Source: Polyangiaceae bacterium
Lineage (GTDB): Bacteria; Myxococcota_A; Polyangia; Polyangiales; Polyangiaceae
Direction of reading: 5' to 3'
NCBI GenBank assembly: GCA_029261965.1
Contig: JAJDAH010000036.1
Coordinates: 1 to 64,000, forward strand
DNA length: 64,000 bases
Shown here: piece after piece, positions 26,533 to 32,135 of the stretch
Layout of the letters: each line of letters begins with the position of its first letter
How positions within the stretch are numbered: the first letter of the stretch is position 1
Notes under the pieces: model-generated
Seen by the model: the letters and a program-made list of their open reading frames with translations, nothing else
Databases searched by the model: none
What the model was told of the DNA's origin: nothing
Made by a program: the position numbers and the translations under genes

Positions 26533-27669
26533 CTACTCGGACGGCGGCGCGGGGTCCTGCCCGGTCGAGCGCTGCCAACGAGACCCGAGGGCGCGCAACG
26601 CGTCGGGGAAAACCCCAAAATGAGCGCAGTGGTCGAGCTTGCCGTTGCCGCTGTACCCGCGGACGTGAAAGTCGCCCTTCGAGAACCACTCGATCAAGTC
26701 GAGCCCGAGCGGGTCGCGCCGGCGCGCCGGACGCGGCCGATAGCCGAGCTGGTTCAAGAGCGAGTGCACTGTCTCCGTCGTCGAAGCGTAGTCCGGCGGG
26801 TCTATCGACGAGTGCGAAGCGAAAAAGAACTTTTCCCCGTCGACGGCTCGTCTAGCGAAACGAACGAAACGGGCAAGCTGCTCTTCCTGTCGGGCCCGAT
26901 CCCGTGAGGCGTGCAGACTGTCGAGCAATACGAGGGCATCGACCTTGCGCCCGAGGGGTTGCACCAGAATGTGCTCGATGGCTTCGTAGCCGCGACTCCA
27001 ACTCGTGAGCGCGATGCGACGAACCTCGGCGGACGGTACGGCGGCGCCTGCGGCGATCTTGGTCTCGACCTCGGAGACGAGTTTTTCGAACAGCATCGGA
27101 TCGGAGAACGGCGGACCGTAGGCTGCCCCGATGCCGAGGCTCACGCCGAGCAAGACTAGGTCCTCTCCCGATCTCGCCAGCTCTTTGCGCGCCGGGCGGT
27201 GGCCGTGAAAGTGCACGACGAGATCGAAGTGGCCATCCTCGGACAAGGTCCCGAGCCGGGGCGCCACGAACTGCCCCATGGGCCGCACGTGGACCCAATC
27301 GGCCAAGACTCCGAAACCTGGGTCCGGCGCCTCGCACGGGTTGACCCGGCGATCGTCTCGCGTGAGCGAATATTGCGTCCCGCGGGTCGGCCGACCCAAC
27401 CAATCGTCGTTCTCCTCATCGTCGGCCACCGGCCAAAGCGATCGCTGACTGAGCGGATCCACTAGCTCGGCCGTCTCGATCTCGATCTCGATCTCGGGCT
27501 CGGTCTCGGGCTCGGTCTCGGGCTCGGCACGCACGACGAGCTCATTGCTCGGCTCGAGCGCCAGCGGGTCTTTGGGCGGCGAGACCGCATCAGCCCAGGG
27601 CGACGTGGAGGCGAAACCGGCGCCGACGAGCACGACTGCTCCGAGCCCCAACCACATCGCTCGCTCCAT
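26533..27669 (-). CDS. Exported protein of unknown function, hydrolase-like
   Basis: About 378 residues from ATG 27669. The signal peptide or anchor (MWLGLGAVVLVGAGFAST) is followed by an acidic repeat segment (PETEPETEPEIEIEIETAE). The body has DLVVHFHGHRPARKELAR, GVSLGIGAAYGPPF, RRIALTSWSRGYEAI and VDALVLLDSLHAS, which fits an alpha/beta-hydrolase fold with S-W-S-R-G at the nucleophile elbow, and HFHGH like an oxyanion-loop HG. A later FFFASHSSIDPPDYAST and FHVRGYSGNGKLDHCAHFG supply possible acid/His residues. No named family recognised. Divergent from the next gene with 33 bases between starts. Confidence 0.7.
   Translation of the reverse strand: MERAMWLGLGAVVLVGAGFASTSPWADAVSPPKDPLALEPSNELVVRAEPETEPETEPEIEIEIETAELVDPLSQRSLWPVADDEENDDWLGRPTRGTQYSLTRDDRRVNPCEAPDPGFGVLADWVHVRPMGQFVAPRLGTLSEDGHFDLVVHFHGHRPARKELARSGEDLVLLGVSLGIGAAYGPPFSDPMLFEKLVSEVETKIAAGAAVPSAEVRRIALTSWSRGYEAIEHILVQPLGRKVDALVLLDSLHASRDRARQEEQLARFVRFARRAVDGEKFFFASHSSIDPPDYASTTETVHSLLNQLGYRPRPARRRDPLGLDLIEWFSKGDFHVRGYSGNGKLDHCAHFGVFPDALRALGSRWQRSTGQDPAPPSE
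27475..27527. repeat. Hexanucleotide-type simple repeat inside a gene
   Basis: (ctcgat)n followed by (ctcggtctcggg)n makes an almost perfect 6/12-base tandem array. On the minus strand it encodes alternating P-E-T-E and I-E-I-E residues just after the signal peptide. Changes by unit length keep the reading frame. Confidence 0.85.
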
Positions 27670-27702
27670 GATGCTCCGCCATCGTAAGGTTCGCCCGCGG
27701 CC

Positions 27703-28446
27703 ATGAAAAGGCGCCTCTCCCTTCCACTCGTCTACGGTGGCGACGAGCTCACCGGCGCCGCGCCGGCAGAGCTCGAGCGCGCGGCGCGCGGCTGCCGTTC
27801 GGGCGACCGGACGCACAAGGGACTCGTGTTTCTGTGCAACGCCCTCGCCCACTACGGCCTGAGGAGCTGCGTTCCACCCAGCGCCCGCGGGCTTGCGGCG
27901 GCCACCCTGGACACCGCCGAGGGGTGGGCCCTAGGGCGAATTGATCCGTCCGTGGCGCAAAAGGCGCGAAGTGAAGCCTTTGCGGCAGTCATCGCCATCG
28001 AGAAAAAGACCATCGACGCGGTTCGCGCTTCGCGACGTCGCATCGACGGCAAGGCCCACACCGAGCTGGACCCGCACGCTGATGCCGTCGTGCTCCGCTA
28101 CGCCGGGCTCGCCGCCAACCACGCCACGTTCGCCGCGCTGCTCACCGCCGATGGCATCGAGGAGCCCGCAAAGCTGGCGGACGTGCCGCGCCAAGTGGCC
28201 GGCGCGATGGCCTACTTGGACGCTGGGCTCGGCCCAGCTCGCTCCGCGGATCTTCGAGCCAAGGCGTGGGGCCAAGCCGAATGGGAGGCGCAACGGCAGG
28301 GCGCTCCCGACGGGCACCCCGTTGGAGCCTTGGCCGTGCAGATATTTCACGAATACCTGGGCGCATATTGGAAAGATCGAAGCGACGGCCAACGGCTGCA
28401 GCTCGGAGAGCTGGCGGTATGGGCTCTCGCAGCCGATGCGAGCTGA
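27703..28446 (+). CDS. Hypothetical cytoplasmic helical protein
   Basis: 247 residues, no signal peptide or membrane helix. Predicted mostly alpha-helical and Ala-rich: THKGLVFLCNALAHYGLRSCVPPSARGLAAATLDTAEGWALG, then KARSEAFAAVIAIEKKTIDAVRASRRRIDGK, and a C-terminal GALAVQIFHEYLGAYWKDRSDGQRLQLGELAVWAL. The first part (LxxARGCRSGDRTHKGLVFLCNALAHYGL) suggests a helical bundle. I recognise no family. Convergent with the FGE-like membrane gene (12 bases between stops). Confidence 0.7.
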   Translation: MKRRLSLPLVYGGDELTGAAPAELERAARGCRSGDRTHKGLVFLCNALAHYGLRSCVPPSARGLAAATLDTAEGWALGRIDPSVAQKARSEAFAAVIAIEKKTIDAVRASRRRIDGKAHTELDPHADAVVLRYAGLAANHATFAALLTADGIEEPAKLADVPRQVAGAMAYLDAGLGPARSADLRAKAWGQAEWEAQRQGAPDGHPVGALAVQIFHEYLGAYWKDRSDGQRLQLGELAVWALAADAS

Positions 28447-28458
28447 GCGCGGCCGACT

Positions 28459-30012
28459 CTATTTGCAACAGCGCGCGCCGATGAACGGCCAACGGTGCCT
28501 CTCGAGCGCCTTGCGGGTCAAGAGGCTCCGGTAACGACAGTCGACGGCGTAGTCGGACCGAAACGCGTCGTTGGGACCCGCCATCAAGACGCCGGTCGCG
28601 CCCACGACCGGTGACACGACTTCGCTGGATCCATGCAGCATGCTTGCCGTTTCGTCCTCTCTGCGCCGCTCGTCACCTTCTTCTTTTTCCTTCGAGACTC
28701 GATAGACCAGCGTGTAGTTCGCCCGGAGCTTCAGCCCGGTGTTCGATTCTCCCGGGTAGGTGCAGAGACAGCCGATGTACCACTCGTCCGACGTACACAG
28801 CCGCTTGCCCTGACTCTCACACGCTGCGGCGGCGGCATCGATGTCGACGAGCGGCGAATCGATCGGGGTTTCGTCGACGTCCATGGTGAAGATTCGATCG
28901 GCCGAGCTGTAGGTGATCGCGCGCTGCTTCGCAGACCCAACGACTTTGATGTCCGCACACGTCTCGGAGGGGGCGCCGAGCAGTGGCGAAATCTTTCCGA
29001 GTGTCGAGTGCTGAAGCGCCCCTAGCGCCGCGATCAGCGCGGCGCTTCCAACTCCGGAATATACCGCCGCGCTCAGGCGCGGTCGTCGCATGCGCTTCTC
29101 CACGGTCGAGAGCAGCGGCCCGAGATCTCGGACACGTCCGACTTGGGCAATCCAACCGAGCGCGGCGAGCGCGACGAGAACCGGCGTCACGAAGAGCCCC
29201 AGCGCCGCGAGCAGGAGCAGTAGCAAGTTGCTCGTCCTGAGCGATCGCGCGAGCCATCCCACGGACGCCAGCCCCTCAGCGACAAAGAACGGAAGCATCA
29301 CGAAGAAGACGAACCGAAACGCATCGGCGAGCAGCGGTTGCGAGAATCCGATCCAAACGCCGGCGCTCACGCCCGCAAACACTAGGGAAGCGACCATCGC
29401 GCCGGGCAAGAGCTGGGTGCCGAAGTTGGGCGTTGTCCGGTCCGCCAGGTAGGCGAAACAATAGTGGGCAAAGCCGAACGAGGTCAGCGCGATGAGCGGA
29501 CCGATGTTGCCGGAAAACGCATCGACCAGATCGCTCACCCGCCCTTCGGAGCCAGCGAGCACGGTGGTCGATTCGCCGAGCACCGCGGCGAGGGCCGGCA
29601 GACCGAGCTCCGCAGATGTCTGGTGCAACGCGAAGGTAAACACCGACGACGCCACCATGCCTTCGACCAGGCCTTTACCGTGCAAGTAGGCGTAGGTGAC
29701 GAGCAACAGGCCGACGTAGAGCTGAATGAAACCCAGACGCTGGCGCCCTTCGCTGCCTCGCACTTCAATCGCGGCGCCGAGAAAGAGCCAGAAGGTGAGC
29801 CCGCCACCGAGGAACAGGAAAATCCATCCAGACTCGAAGAAAGTCAGCGCCGCCAGCCCCGCGAGCAGCACGGCCAGCCAACCGGCGTAGCGAGGCATCG
29901 ATGCGTCCTCGGCCGAGATGTACTCGTCGACTAGCCGGCGTGCCCCGGCGAGCATGCCAGCGGTCACGAGCGTGGCCACCAAGCAGGCGAATGCGACGAC
30001 GAACCCGGTCAT
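28459..30012 (-). CDS. Polytopic membrane protein with degenerate FGE/SUMF1-like C-terminus
   Basis: 517 residues from ATG 30012, which overlaps the upstream stop by one base (TGATG). About nine to ten hydrophobic helices fill residues 1-335. The C-terminal about 165 residues look like an exported formylglycine-generating-enzyme-like module: RIFTMDVDETPIDSP (compare FxMDxYE-P), IDAAAAACESQGKRLCTSDEWYIGC (GKRLCT at 402-407), then DCRYRS and the final IGARCCK (family end IGFRCC). The central GN-V-x-EW motif is not recognisable, so the module is degenerate and may bind rather than oxidise. Translational coupling with the PEP-synthase-like gene implies a joint function in the inner membrane. No literature family is known to me. 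Confidence 0.75.
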   Translation of the reverse strand: MTGFVVAFACLVATLVTAGMLAGARRLVDEYISAEDASMPRYAGWLAVLLAGLAALTFFESGWIFLFLGGGLTFWLFLGAAIEVRGSEGRQRLGFIQLYVGLLLVTYAYLHGKGLVEGMVASSVFTFALHQTSAELGLPALAAVLGESTTVLAGSEGRVSDLVDAFSGNIGPLIALTSFGFAHYCFAYLADRTTPNFGTQLLPGAMVASLVFAGVSAGVWIGFSQPLLADAFRFVFFVMLPFFVAEGLASVGWLARSLRTSNLLLLLLAALGLFVTPVLVALAALGWIAQVGRVRDLGPLLSTVEKRMRRPRLSAAVYSGVGSAALIAALGALQHSTLGKISPLLGAPSETCADIKVVGSAKQRAITYSSADRIFTMDVDETPIDSPLVDIDAAAAACESQGKRLCTSDEWYIGCLCTYPGESNTGLKLRANYTLVYRVSKEKEEGDERRREDETASMLHGSSEVVSPVVGATGVLMAGPNDAFRSDYAVDCRYRSLLTRKALERHRWPFIGARCCK

Positions 30013-32135
30013 CAGAAACGCACCACCCCGGAACGCCCATCGATGGCGATGGGATGTCCGTTGGGAAATCTGGTCACTGGCGTCGCATCGACGCAAACCA
30101 CCGCTGGAACGCCGAGCTCGGCGGCGAGCGTCGCCATCGGCGACAGCGTTCCACCGCCGGTCAACACCACACCGCGCGCGCTCAACACCTGATGGCGAAA
30201 ATCCGCTCGACCGTCGGGTAAGACGACGATTGTGCCAGCGTAAGGTGGCTCGTCGGGCTTGAGCACGACCGCGGCGTGTGAATTGGCCACGCCATCCACC
30301 AGGCCGATGACGCGCAACTTCGACTCGGCTTCGGGGCGCCGAACCAGCGGCGGCTCGAACATTCTGTCGGCGGGTGGCTCTTCGCCGCCCTCGGCATACT
30401 TGTCGGCTTGGGCGGCCCAGTCCTTGCCCATCGCCTCACGCGCCGACGGGTCACTGACCCATCGGTCGAGCTCGGCCAAGCTCGCGTGTCGAAAGCCGTC
30501 GCCGATGAACATCCCGCTCCATCCTTGAGCCGCGCGTCCGAGCACCTCGGCAACCGCCTCCGGTAGCTGCTGCTCGGCCGTGCCGAACAAGGCCGTGATG
30601 CGTGCAATCTCGGCGGCACAGGTGCGCGCTCGTCGTTCGAGGATCCACCGGAACGCAGCGCGCATCCTTCGGCTCTCGTCCTCGGCGAAGTCGTAGCGAA
30701 GAGCGCTAGCCGCGGAATCCATCATCCAGCGGCGTACGAGGTAGCGGGCCTGGTCGCGCGCCAGGGGCGCCACGTTCCGACGATGCCATGATCGGAGCTT
30801 CGACCAGGCGCGGATGGCGTCGCTTCCGGCGGCAGGGACTTTGCTCAACCCTCGGCTGAGCACTGGGCCTATCAGGTTGATCACGTGAAAGAGCGGCGTC
30901 CTCAGCAAGAGCGTGCGCGCCTGCTGAGCTAGTGCCCGCCGCAGCGCCGTGACTTCGACGAAGCGAACACCGTGCACTTCCCGGAGCTCGTCCTCGGTCG
31001 GTCCATCGCCGAGTCCGCCGACGCGGATCGTTTCGCGCATCGCCTCGGCGAGCACTTCCGGTCCGCCTCGCACCTCGCGCACGAGCCGAGTGAGTCGAGA
31101 CTTCGGCGCCGTCAGAGGCCCGCCGGAGCTCAGCCAGCACTTGCGCTTCGGTACGCCGACCTGACGGACCTGCAGAATCCACAGCTGCTCCTCCACCACG
31201 GCGAACTCGAGCTGAACGCATCCGCCCACGTCTTCGTCGAGCGCCAACGCGAGCAGACTCAACCGAGTCATCCACCCCGGTGTCTCGGCGAGCCTGCCGC
31301 TGGGCGCGATCGGCACCGCCTCGCCGCGCACGAGATCGTATCGCACGCTGCGTATCGGCGAGCGCCGGCGAGCGTAGTCGATCACGGTGCAATCCGTTCG
31401 CCCGTCCGGCGACCGGGATTGCACGACGCCAGTCACGTCGCCGTCCACCTGACGTTGGAGGAGGACCGCCCGGGGCAGAGCCTTGACGACTTTCTTTCGT
31501 CGTCGGTACTCGAGCGCCGACGGCGCCTCCGCGGAGCGGCACACGTGCAAGACGGCGGCCGCAACGGCAGCGCGGTGACCCGCGTCCACGTCTTTCACGT
31601 GTTGAAACACACCGGGATGAGAAGCTTCTCTGTCTTCAGCGGCGAACGAAGCTCTGACGATGATCTTGCTGCCACGGCAGCTGTGAAGGAAGGCTTCGAG
31701 TTGTCGCTTGGCTTCCGGCGGCAGGACGCTCCACGGGTCGTCCTTGCGCGTCGCGGCGACCCCGAGCCACGTGCTCACGAACGAGGACGTCAGCACGACT
31801 CCTTCGGGTGTCGGCACGCCCAGGCGCTGCAGACGGGCCACGCCCAGCCCTTTGCCGCCAATGGTCTCGAGCTCGAGCTTCTGATTCGCCGCCAAGGTGT
31901 GGAGGTTGACGACGAACTTCGGACGCCGACGACGATCGACGAATCGCAGGCTCGACTCGGCGACGAGCAACACTGCCAGCGCGATGCCGAACGCGGCGAA
32001 ACCCGCGATCACGGGGCCGCCCAAGCTCGAAACCAGCGAGCTCCACAGAGCCGCCGCGGTCACCCCGAGCACCGCGAGAAAAACGAATGCCGCGAGGAAC
32101 GGGATGAACTGGAGGGACCCGACGAAGGGAATCAT
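30012..32135 (-). CDS. Membrane-anchored PEP-synthase/PPDK-like protein lacking the catalytic His
   Basis: 707 residues. Two membrane helices (about 10-33 and 41-60) precede a PPDK/PEP-synthase N-terminal ATP-grasp domain: TIGGKGLGVARLQRLGVPTPEG (GGKG 93-96), IIVRASFAAEDREAS (R161, E167), VDGDVTGVVQSRSPDG, and CVQLEFAVVEEQLWILQVRQ with Q308, E310, Q322 and R324. A long helical middle (330-600) has no assigned family. The C-terminal swivelling PEP-utilisers domain ends GVVLTGGGTLSPMATLAAEL (655-674): the phosphorylatable His of the usual GG-x-x-SH motif is Pro666, and the following Arg is Ala. Classic phosphotransfer is therefore unlikely. It is coupled to the FGE-like membrane gene. It lacks the PEP/pyruvate TIM barrel of full PPDK, resembling rifampicin phosphotransferases in architecture. 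Confidence 0.85.
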   Translation of the reverse strand: MIPFVGSLQFIPFLAAFVFLAVLGVTAAALWSSLVSSLGGPVIAGFAAFGIALAVLLVAESSLRFVDRRRRPKFVVNLHTLAANQKLELETIGGKGLGVARLQRLGVPTPEGVVLTSSFVSTWLGVAATRKDDPWSVLPPEAKRQLEAFLHSCRGSKIIVRASFAAEDREASHPGVFQHVKDVDAGHRAAVAAAVLHVCRSAEAPSALEYRRRKKVVKALPRAVLLQRQVDGDVTGVVQSRSPDGRTDCTVIDYARRRSPIRSVRYDLVRGEAVPIAPSGRLAETPGWMTRLSLLALALDEDVGGCVQLEFAVVEEQLWILQVRQVGVPKRKCWLSSGGPLTAPKSRLTRLVREVRGGPEVLAEAMRETIRVGGLGDGPTEDELREVHGVRFVEVTALRRALAQQARTLLLRTPLFHVINLIGPVLSRGLSKVPAAGSDAIRAWSKLRSWHRRNVAPLARDQARYLVRRWMMDSAASALRYDFAEDESRRMRAAFRWILERRARTCAAEIARITALFGTAEQQLPEAVAEVLGRAAQGWSGMFIGDGFRHASLAELDRWVSDPSAREAMGKDWAAQADKYAEGGEEPPADRMFEPPLVRRPEAESKLRVIGLVDGVANSHAAVVLKPDEPPYAGTIVVLPDGRADFRHQVLSARGVVLTGGGTLSPMATLAAELGVPAVVCVDATPVTRFPNGHPIAIDGRSGVVRF

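Follow-up and report, generated by a model that had tools for sequence, protein, structure and literature searches.

A Polyangiaceae gene pair encoding a membrane-anchored RPH/PPDK-like protein without the swivel histidine and a multi-helix membrane protein whose tail is exchangeable

RESULTS

Two overlapping genes encode a pair of membrane proteins

We analysed a stretch of 64,000 nt from a Polyangiaceae bacterium (contig JAJDAH010000036.1; hereafter the window), the minus strand of which carries two consecutive genes, P1 (32135–30012, 707 aa) and P2 (30012–28459, 517 aa). P1 is an open frame beginning with ATG and has four full-length homologues with 36–40% identity and a common start region. 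Its stop codon (30012–30014, minus strand) shares one base with the ATG of P2 at 30012, so that the junction reads TGATG and bears out the one-base overlap of the original prediction. The assignment of P2 is supported by its open frame, this junction and its homologues. As the gene arrangement shows, the two proteins are made together by translational coupling.

P1 matched the Pfam families PPDK_N (PF01326, E = 2e-16) and PEP-utilizers (PF00391, E = 1.7e-10). Hydropathy analysis revealed two hydrophobic helices at residues 10–28 and 41–59 (31959–32108, minus strand), followed by RRRRPK, and the same N-terminal hairpin was present in all P1 members. An ATP-grasp/swivelling protein with two N-terminal helices had indeed been predicted here. 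The positive residues after the second helix suggest that the protein beyond the hairpin is cytoplasmic. This part begins with an ATP-grasp domain (about residues 88–330; 31146–31874, minus strand), as delimited by the PPDK_N match, the structural match to PPDK and rifampin phosphotransferase (RPH), and residue mapping. It is followed by a middle region (about residues 331–605; 30321–31145, minus strand) in the position of the substrate-binding domain of RPH, an assignment made from domain order only, since the structural model falls below pLDDT 50 here. The C-terminal swivel (PEP-utilising mobile) domain (residues 606–706; 30018–30320, minus strand) was placed by PF00391 and by structural alignment with VIA-align.

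P2 consists of a membrane part with about nine helices (residues 1–345; 28978–30012, minus strand), as judged from hydropathy and a low-confidence AlphaFold model (pLDDT 52), and a cysteine-containing C-terminal module (residues 353–517; 28462–28956, minus strand) that is FGE-like and probably periplasmic.

The pair is conserved as a unit in three genera of one family

Single-protein and profile searches of the class and phylum detected the pair in five genomes (the window genome G000, G006, G012, G054 and G281), which belong to three genera of one family, the Polyangiaceae; this sample of five genomes and three genera is the basis of all statements on conservation below. P1 and P2 were adjacent and in the same order in all five, as expected if the genes belong together in related genomes, and in none of the 377 phylum genomes sampled did one gene occur without the other. 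In the P1 profile search of these 377 genomes, five full-length P1 proteins scored >1100 bits and the next protein 66 bits. Similarly, a profile of the P2 membrane part found the same five genomes only. The junction is TGATG in G000 and G054, GTGA in G012 and G281, and a 3-nt gap in G006. All frames are intact, with 34–40% identity across genera. An assembly artefact is unlikely because G054 is an assembly of five contigs. Of the pair-bearing records, two are named as Polyangiaceae MAGs and one as a Myxococcales groundwater MAG.

For the wider distribution, a pattern-seeded scan of 84,980 species, which would miss members without the seed motifs, returned three loci of the family, all in Myxococcota, as well as one ordinary relative that keeps its histidine, in a Desulfobacteraceae bacterium. 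A locus in a Desulfobacteraceae MAG (L064:283–7678) encodes a fusion of HMG-CoA reductase with a kinase-like domain, then an RPH-like protein in which the histidine is retained, together with a membrane protein that is unassigned and has a DDLTDLEHD motif, a CDP-alcohol phosphatidyltransferase and a CDP-archaeol-synthase-like protein; the run resembles a bacterial gene cluster for isoprenoid lipids of the archaeal type.

A larger conserved operon was considered and rejected, as the genes on both sides of the pair differ between genera. In the window the upstream genes encode a methyltransferase and an M20 peptidase, in G006 an ABC ATPase, and in G012, G281 and G054 a HEAT-like secreted protein; downstream lies a cysteine-synthase-like gene in the genus we call g13. 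Because no flanking gene is common across genera, the pair itself is the unit. The large secreted protein at L063:4414–6453 and the HEAT-repeat-like secreted protein encoded by the next gene, likewise found in G012 and G054, occur upstream of the pair in g13 only. Two further genes of the window, at 27703–28446 (plus strand) and 26533–27852 (minus strand), have no Pfam match; their longest frames overlap at the starts, and the start of the latter was therefore probably called too far upstream. A plasmid-borne element was also rejected, as neither protein matched in the plasmid collection.

P1 has the domain order of RPH

The model of P1 has low confidence (mean pLDDT 44). With this model, Foldseek returned Listeria RPH (RPH-Lm; PDB 5FBS/5HV1) as the best match (E = 1.6e-7). 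VIA-align superimposed P1 residues 72–239 with a Z-score of ∼14.7 on RPH-Lm and 15.1 on PPDK (∼15 over 147 residues), so that the expected ATP-grasp fold was found in a model of that pLDDT; the swivel residues 604–687 gave a Z-score of 6.0 against RPH-Lm (5fbu). P1 runs from the ATP-grasp domain through the middle region to a C-terminal swivel. This is the order of RPH, in which the swivel is C-terminal, whereas the swivel of PEP synthase is central (PMC4844700). P1 differs from RPH-Lm in its membrane hairpin and in its middle region, which is shorter (about 275 aa, as against the region between residues 314 and 767 of RPH-Lm). With PEP synthase and pyruvate phosphate dikinase (PPDK) it has the PPDK_N and PEP-utilizers domains in common, but its swivel is not central, it is membrane anchored and, as described below, it lacks the catalytic histidine. 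Furthermore, no Pfam match to the PEP/pyruvate-binding TIM barrel was found in P1, which ends with the swivel domain.

All NCBIfam matches of P1 were far under their cut-offs. A full-length match to rifampin phosphotransferase (NF041857) was not obtained (15.7 bits; cut-off 999). The second best match, to the prodigiosin ligases PigC/RedH (NF052631, NF052632), which have the same domain superfamily, covered the ATP-grasp part only (E = 4e-14) and reached 51 bits against a cut-off of 1300; no prodigiosin genes were seen around P1.

All P1 copies lack the swivel histidine and one genus also lacks ATP-grasp residues

Residue numbers of P1 were counted from its alignment to RPH-Lm, which maps K22 to K95, R117 to R161, E297 to E310, Q309 to Q322 and the catalytic H825 to P666 (codon at 30138–30140, minus strand). 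All five P1 proteins have Pro at position 666, where the 19 relatives checked all have the phosphate-carrying His. A Ser beside this site occurs in ordinary enzymes too, and no conserved nucleophile replaces the histidine at the site across the five proteins. With the swivel histidine lost, P1 cannot, judging by its sequence, run the relay from ATP to His to substrate.

The ATP-grasp residues are distributed differently. The window P1 keeps K95, R161, E310, Q322 and R324, as does its G006 counterpart, and R161 and R324 do not vary among the five proteins. In the three g13 copies, K95 is replaced by Glu, E310 by Gln or His and Q322 by Ser, at positions where the relatives have Lys (18/18), Glu (7/7) and Gln (7/7), and Pfam did not detect PPDK_N in two of these copies. 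Of these changes, that of the lysine is the most informative, since RPH-Lm K22A has no activity while E297A is still active (PMC4844700). ATP binding is therefore plausible in the window and G006 proteins, the first of which may still bind or hydrolyse ATP, and doubtful in g13. Nevertheless, dN/dS of P1 between g13 copies was 0.15–0.24, indicating purifying selection despite the missing catalytic residues; for P2 within g13 it was 0.24–0.51. Ratios between genera were saturated and not used.

P2 combines a conserved membrane part with an exchangeable tail

The P2 membrane part aligns throughout among the five genomes. It belongs to no known family, with no match in Pfam, NCBIfam or PADLOC or to PDB sequences, and Foldseek returned only MFS-like and chance matches (none with E ≤ 0.001; model pLDDT 52). 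At this model quality, the absent fold match is no evidence of a new fold. Hydropathy and charge distribution suggest that the tail lies outside, in the periplasm, and the P1 domains inside.

No curated Pfam family matched P2, including PF03781 (FGE-sulfatase/SUMF1-like) for the tail. In the window, however, the tail shares two blocks with myxobacterial FGE-like proteins, CESQGKRLCTSDEW and RCC (general form CxxxGKRLCTxxEW and a terminal RCC, here ARCCK), and hhalign aligned it to a set of such proteins with a probability of 98, one protein of the set scoring PF03781 at E = 3.2e-11. The tail differs from FGE-sulfatase in that the central GN.HEW block was not found and in its position on a multi-helix membrane protein. 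By eye, we also saw no CxxxxC pair, the form of the catalytic cysteines in true FGE, before the RC.xR block. Many myxobacterial proteins (L039, L040, L042, L054 and others) bear the FGE-like domain in this Cys-rich form, GKRLCTxxEW...GFRCC, on varied scaffolds, some of them (L054 and L055) with a LysM-like tail.

Four of the five genomes have an FGE-like tail. In the fifth, G006, the P2 homologue (L062:10113–12347) carries after the conserved SPxLGxPxxxC a CapA/PGA_cap domain instead (PF09587, E = 1.8e-50). Unlike CapA, this PGA_cap domain is fused behind the P2 membrane part, and the motifs usual in CapA, NNH and NLE, read TEH and NLV here. A nine- to ten-helix protein ending in an FGE-like module had been predicted; the helices and the module were recovered, but the tail is not a fixed part of the protein. 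As it is swapped in one genome, the conserved core consists of P1 and the P2 membrane part.

No described system was found for the pair

PADLOC yielded no match to an anti-phage defence system beyond a chance-level one to a membrane segment (E = 0.051), and a defence system was rejected. Each of the domains is already known. For the way they are combined in P1 and P2, for the anchoring in the membrane and for a swivel histidine lost in every copy, we found no description in the open papers searched, where the RPH structure paper was the only relevant find. In line with the original prediction, the pair is thus no known transporter or enzyme set as far as Pfam, NCBIfam, PADLOC and these papers reach.

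DISCUSSION

The gene pair described here is a Polyangiaceae-specific two-gene unit in which P1 appears to derive from a three-domain phosphotransferase of the RPH/PEP synthase type, to be tethered to the membrane by its N-terminal hairpin and to have lost the swivel histidine. We tentatively favour, at slightly less than even confidence, the reading that P1 is a membrane-anchored pseudo-phosphotransferase, structural or nucleotide-responsive, that partners P2, which would display an exchangeable periplasmic module. P1 would most likely bind P2 and, working from the cytoplasm, serve as a partner that is either structural or responsive to a ligand or nucleotide, a conformational change of its ATP-grasp and swivel domains setting the state of the P2 membrane part. 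The periplasmic head of P2, whether FGE-like or CapA-like, may then bind or modify something in the cell envelope. In this sense, we infer a regulatory role for P1. As the window and G006 copies retain the ATP-grasp residues that g13 has lost, any single role shared by every copy would be structural: P1 may have a structural role throughout, or g13 may have lost the sensing.

Alternatively, P1 could be active by another route, driving P2 through an ATP-grasp domain that hydrolyses ATP or directly activates a substrate with no phosphohistidine relay involved. This would fit the complete set of Lys, Arg, Glu, Gln and Arg in two genera and the two arginines invariant in all five copies. We nevertheless consider it unlikely, because the gene is under selection in g13 with Glu in place of the lysine, and the corresponding K22A change inactivates RPH-Lm (PMC4844700); an enzymatic function shared by all copies would have to manage without Lys, Glu and Gln. 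Somewhat less likely still, P2 would be the working part, as a transporter or an envelope enzyme whose periplasmic domain is FGE-like or CapA-like, while P1 would only aid assembly or stability and sense no ligand. The loss of ATP-grasp residues in g13 and the coupled translation agree with such a division of labour, but the residues retained in the other two genera hint at ligand binding there.

The original prediction had suggested a membrane-bound PEP-synthase-type phosphorylation device acting on a lipid or small molecule. Although the RPH-like three-domain order with ATP-grasp and swivel domains would suit it, we rejected this very improbable reading on the His-to-Pro change found in every P1 with no alternative nucleophile at the site, and the ATP-binding lysine that RPH-Lm needs is Glu in g13. 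Least credible of all are decaying leftovers, to which the patchy distribution and the lost catalytic residues could point, given intact frames in all five genomes at the identities reported across genera, low dN/dS for both genes in g13, invariant motifs and the same His-to-Pro change everywhere.

Pseudoenzymes are known in many protein folds, but in the open papers searched we found none described for the PEP-synthase/RPH phosphotransferase class. If P1 is a pseudo-phosphotransferase, it could represent a family in which the RPH/PEP-synthase scaffold senses a nucleotide or metabolite in the cytoplasm and switches a membrane protein of a new type, the periplasmic heads of which are interchangeable; we regard this broader proposal as possible though doubtful. 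The swap of the P2 tail offers a clean route to the function of the core, as no other part is shared by all copies. If confirmed, the pair would be a case in which the swivelling machine, lacking its phosphate carrier and anchored in the membrane, has been put to another use.
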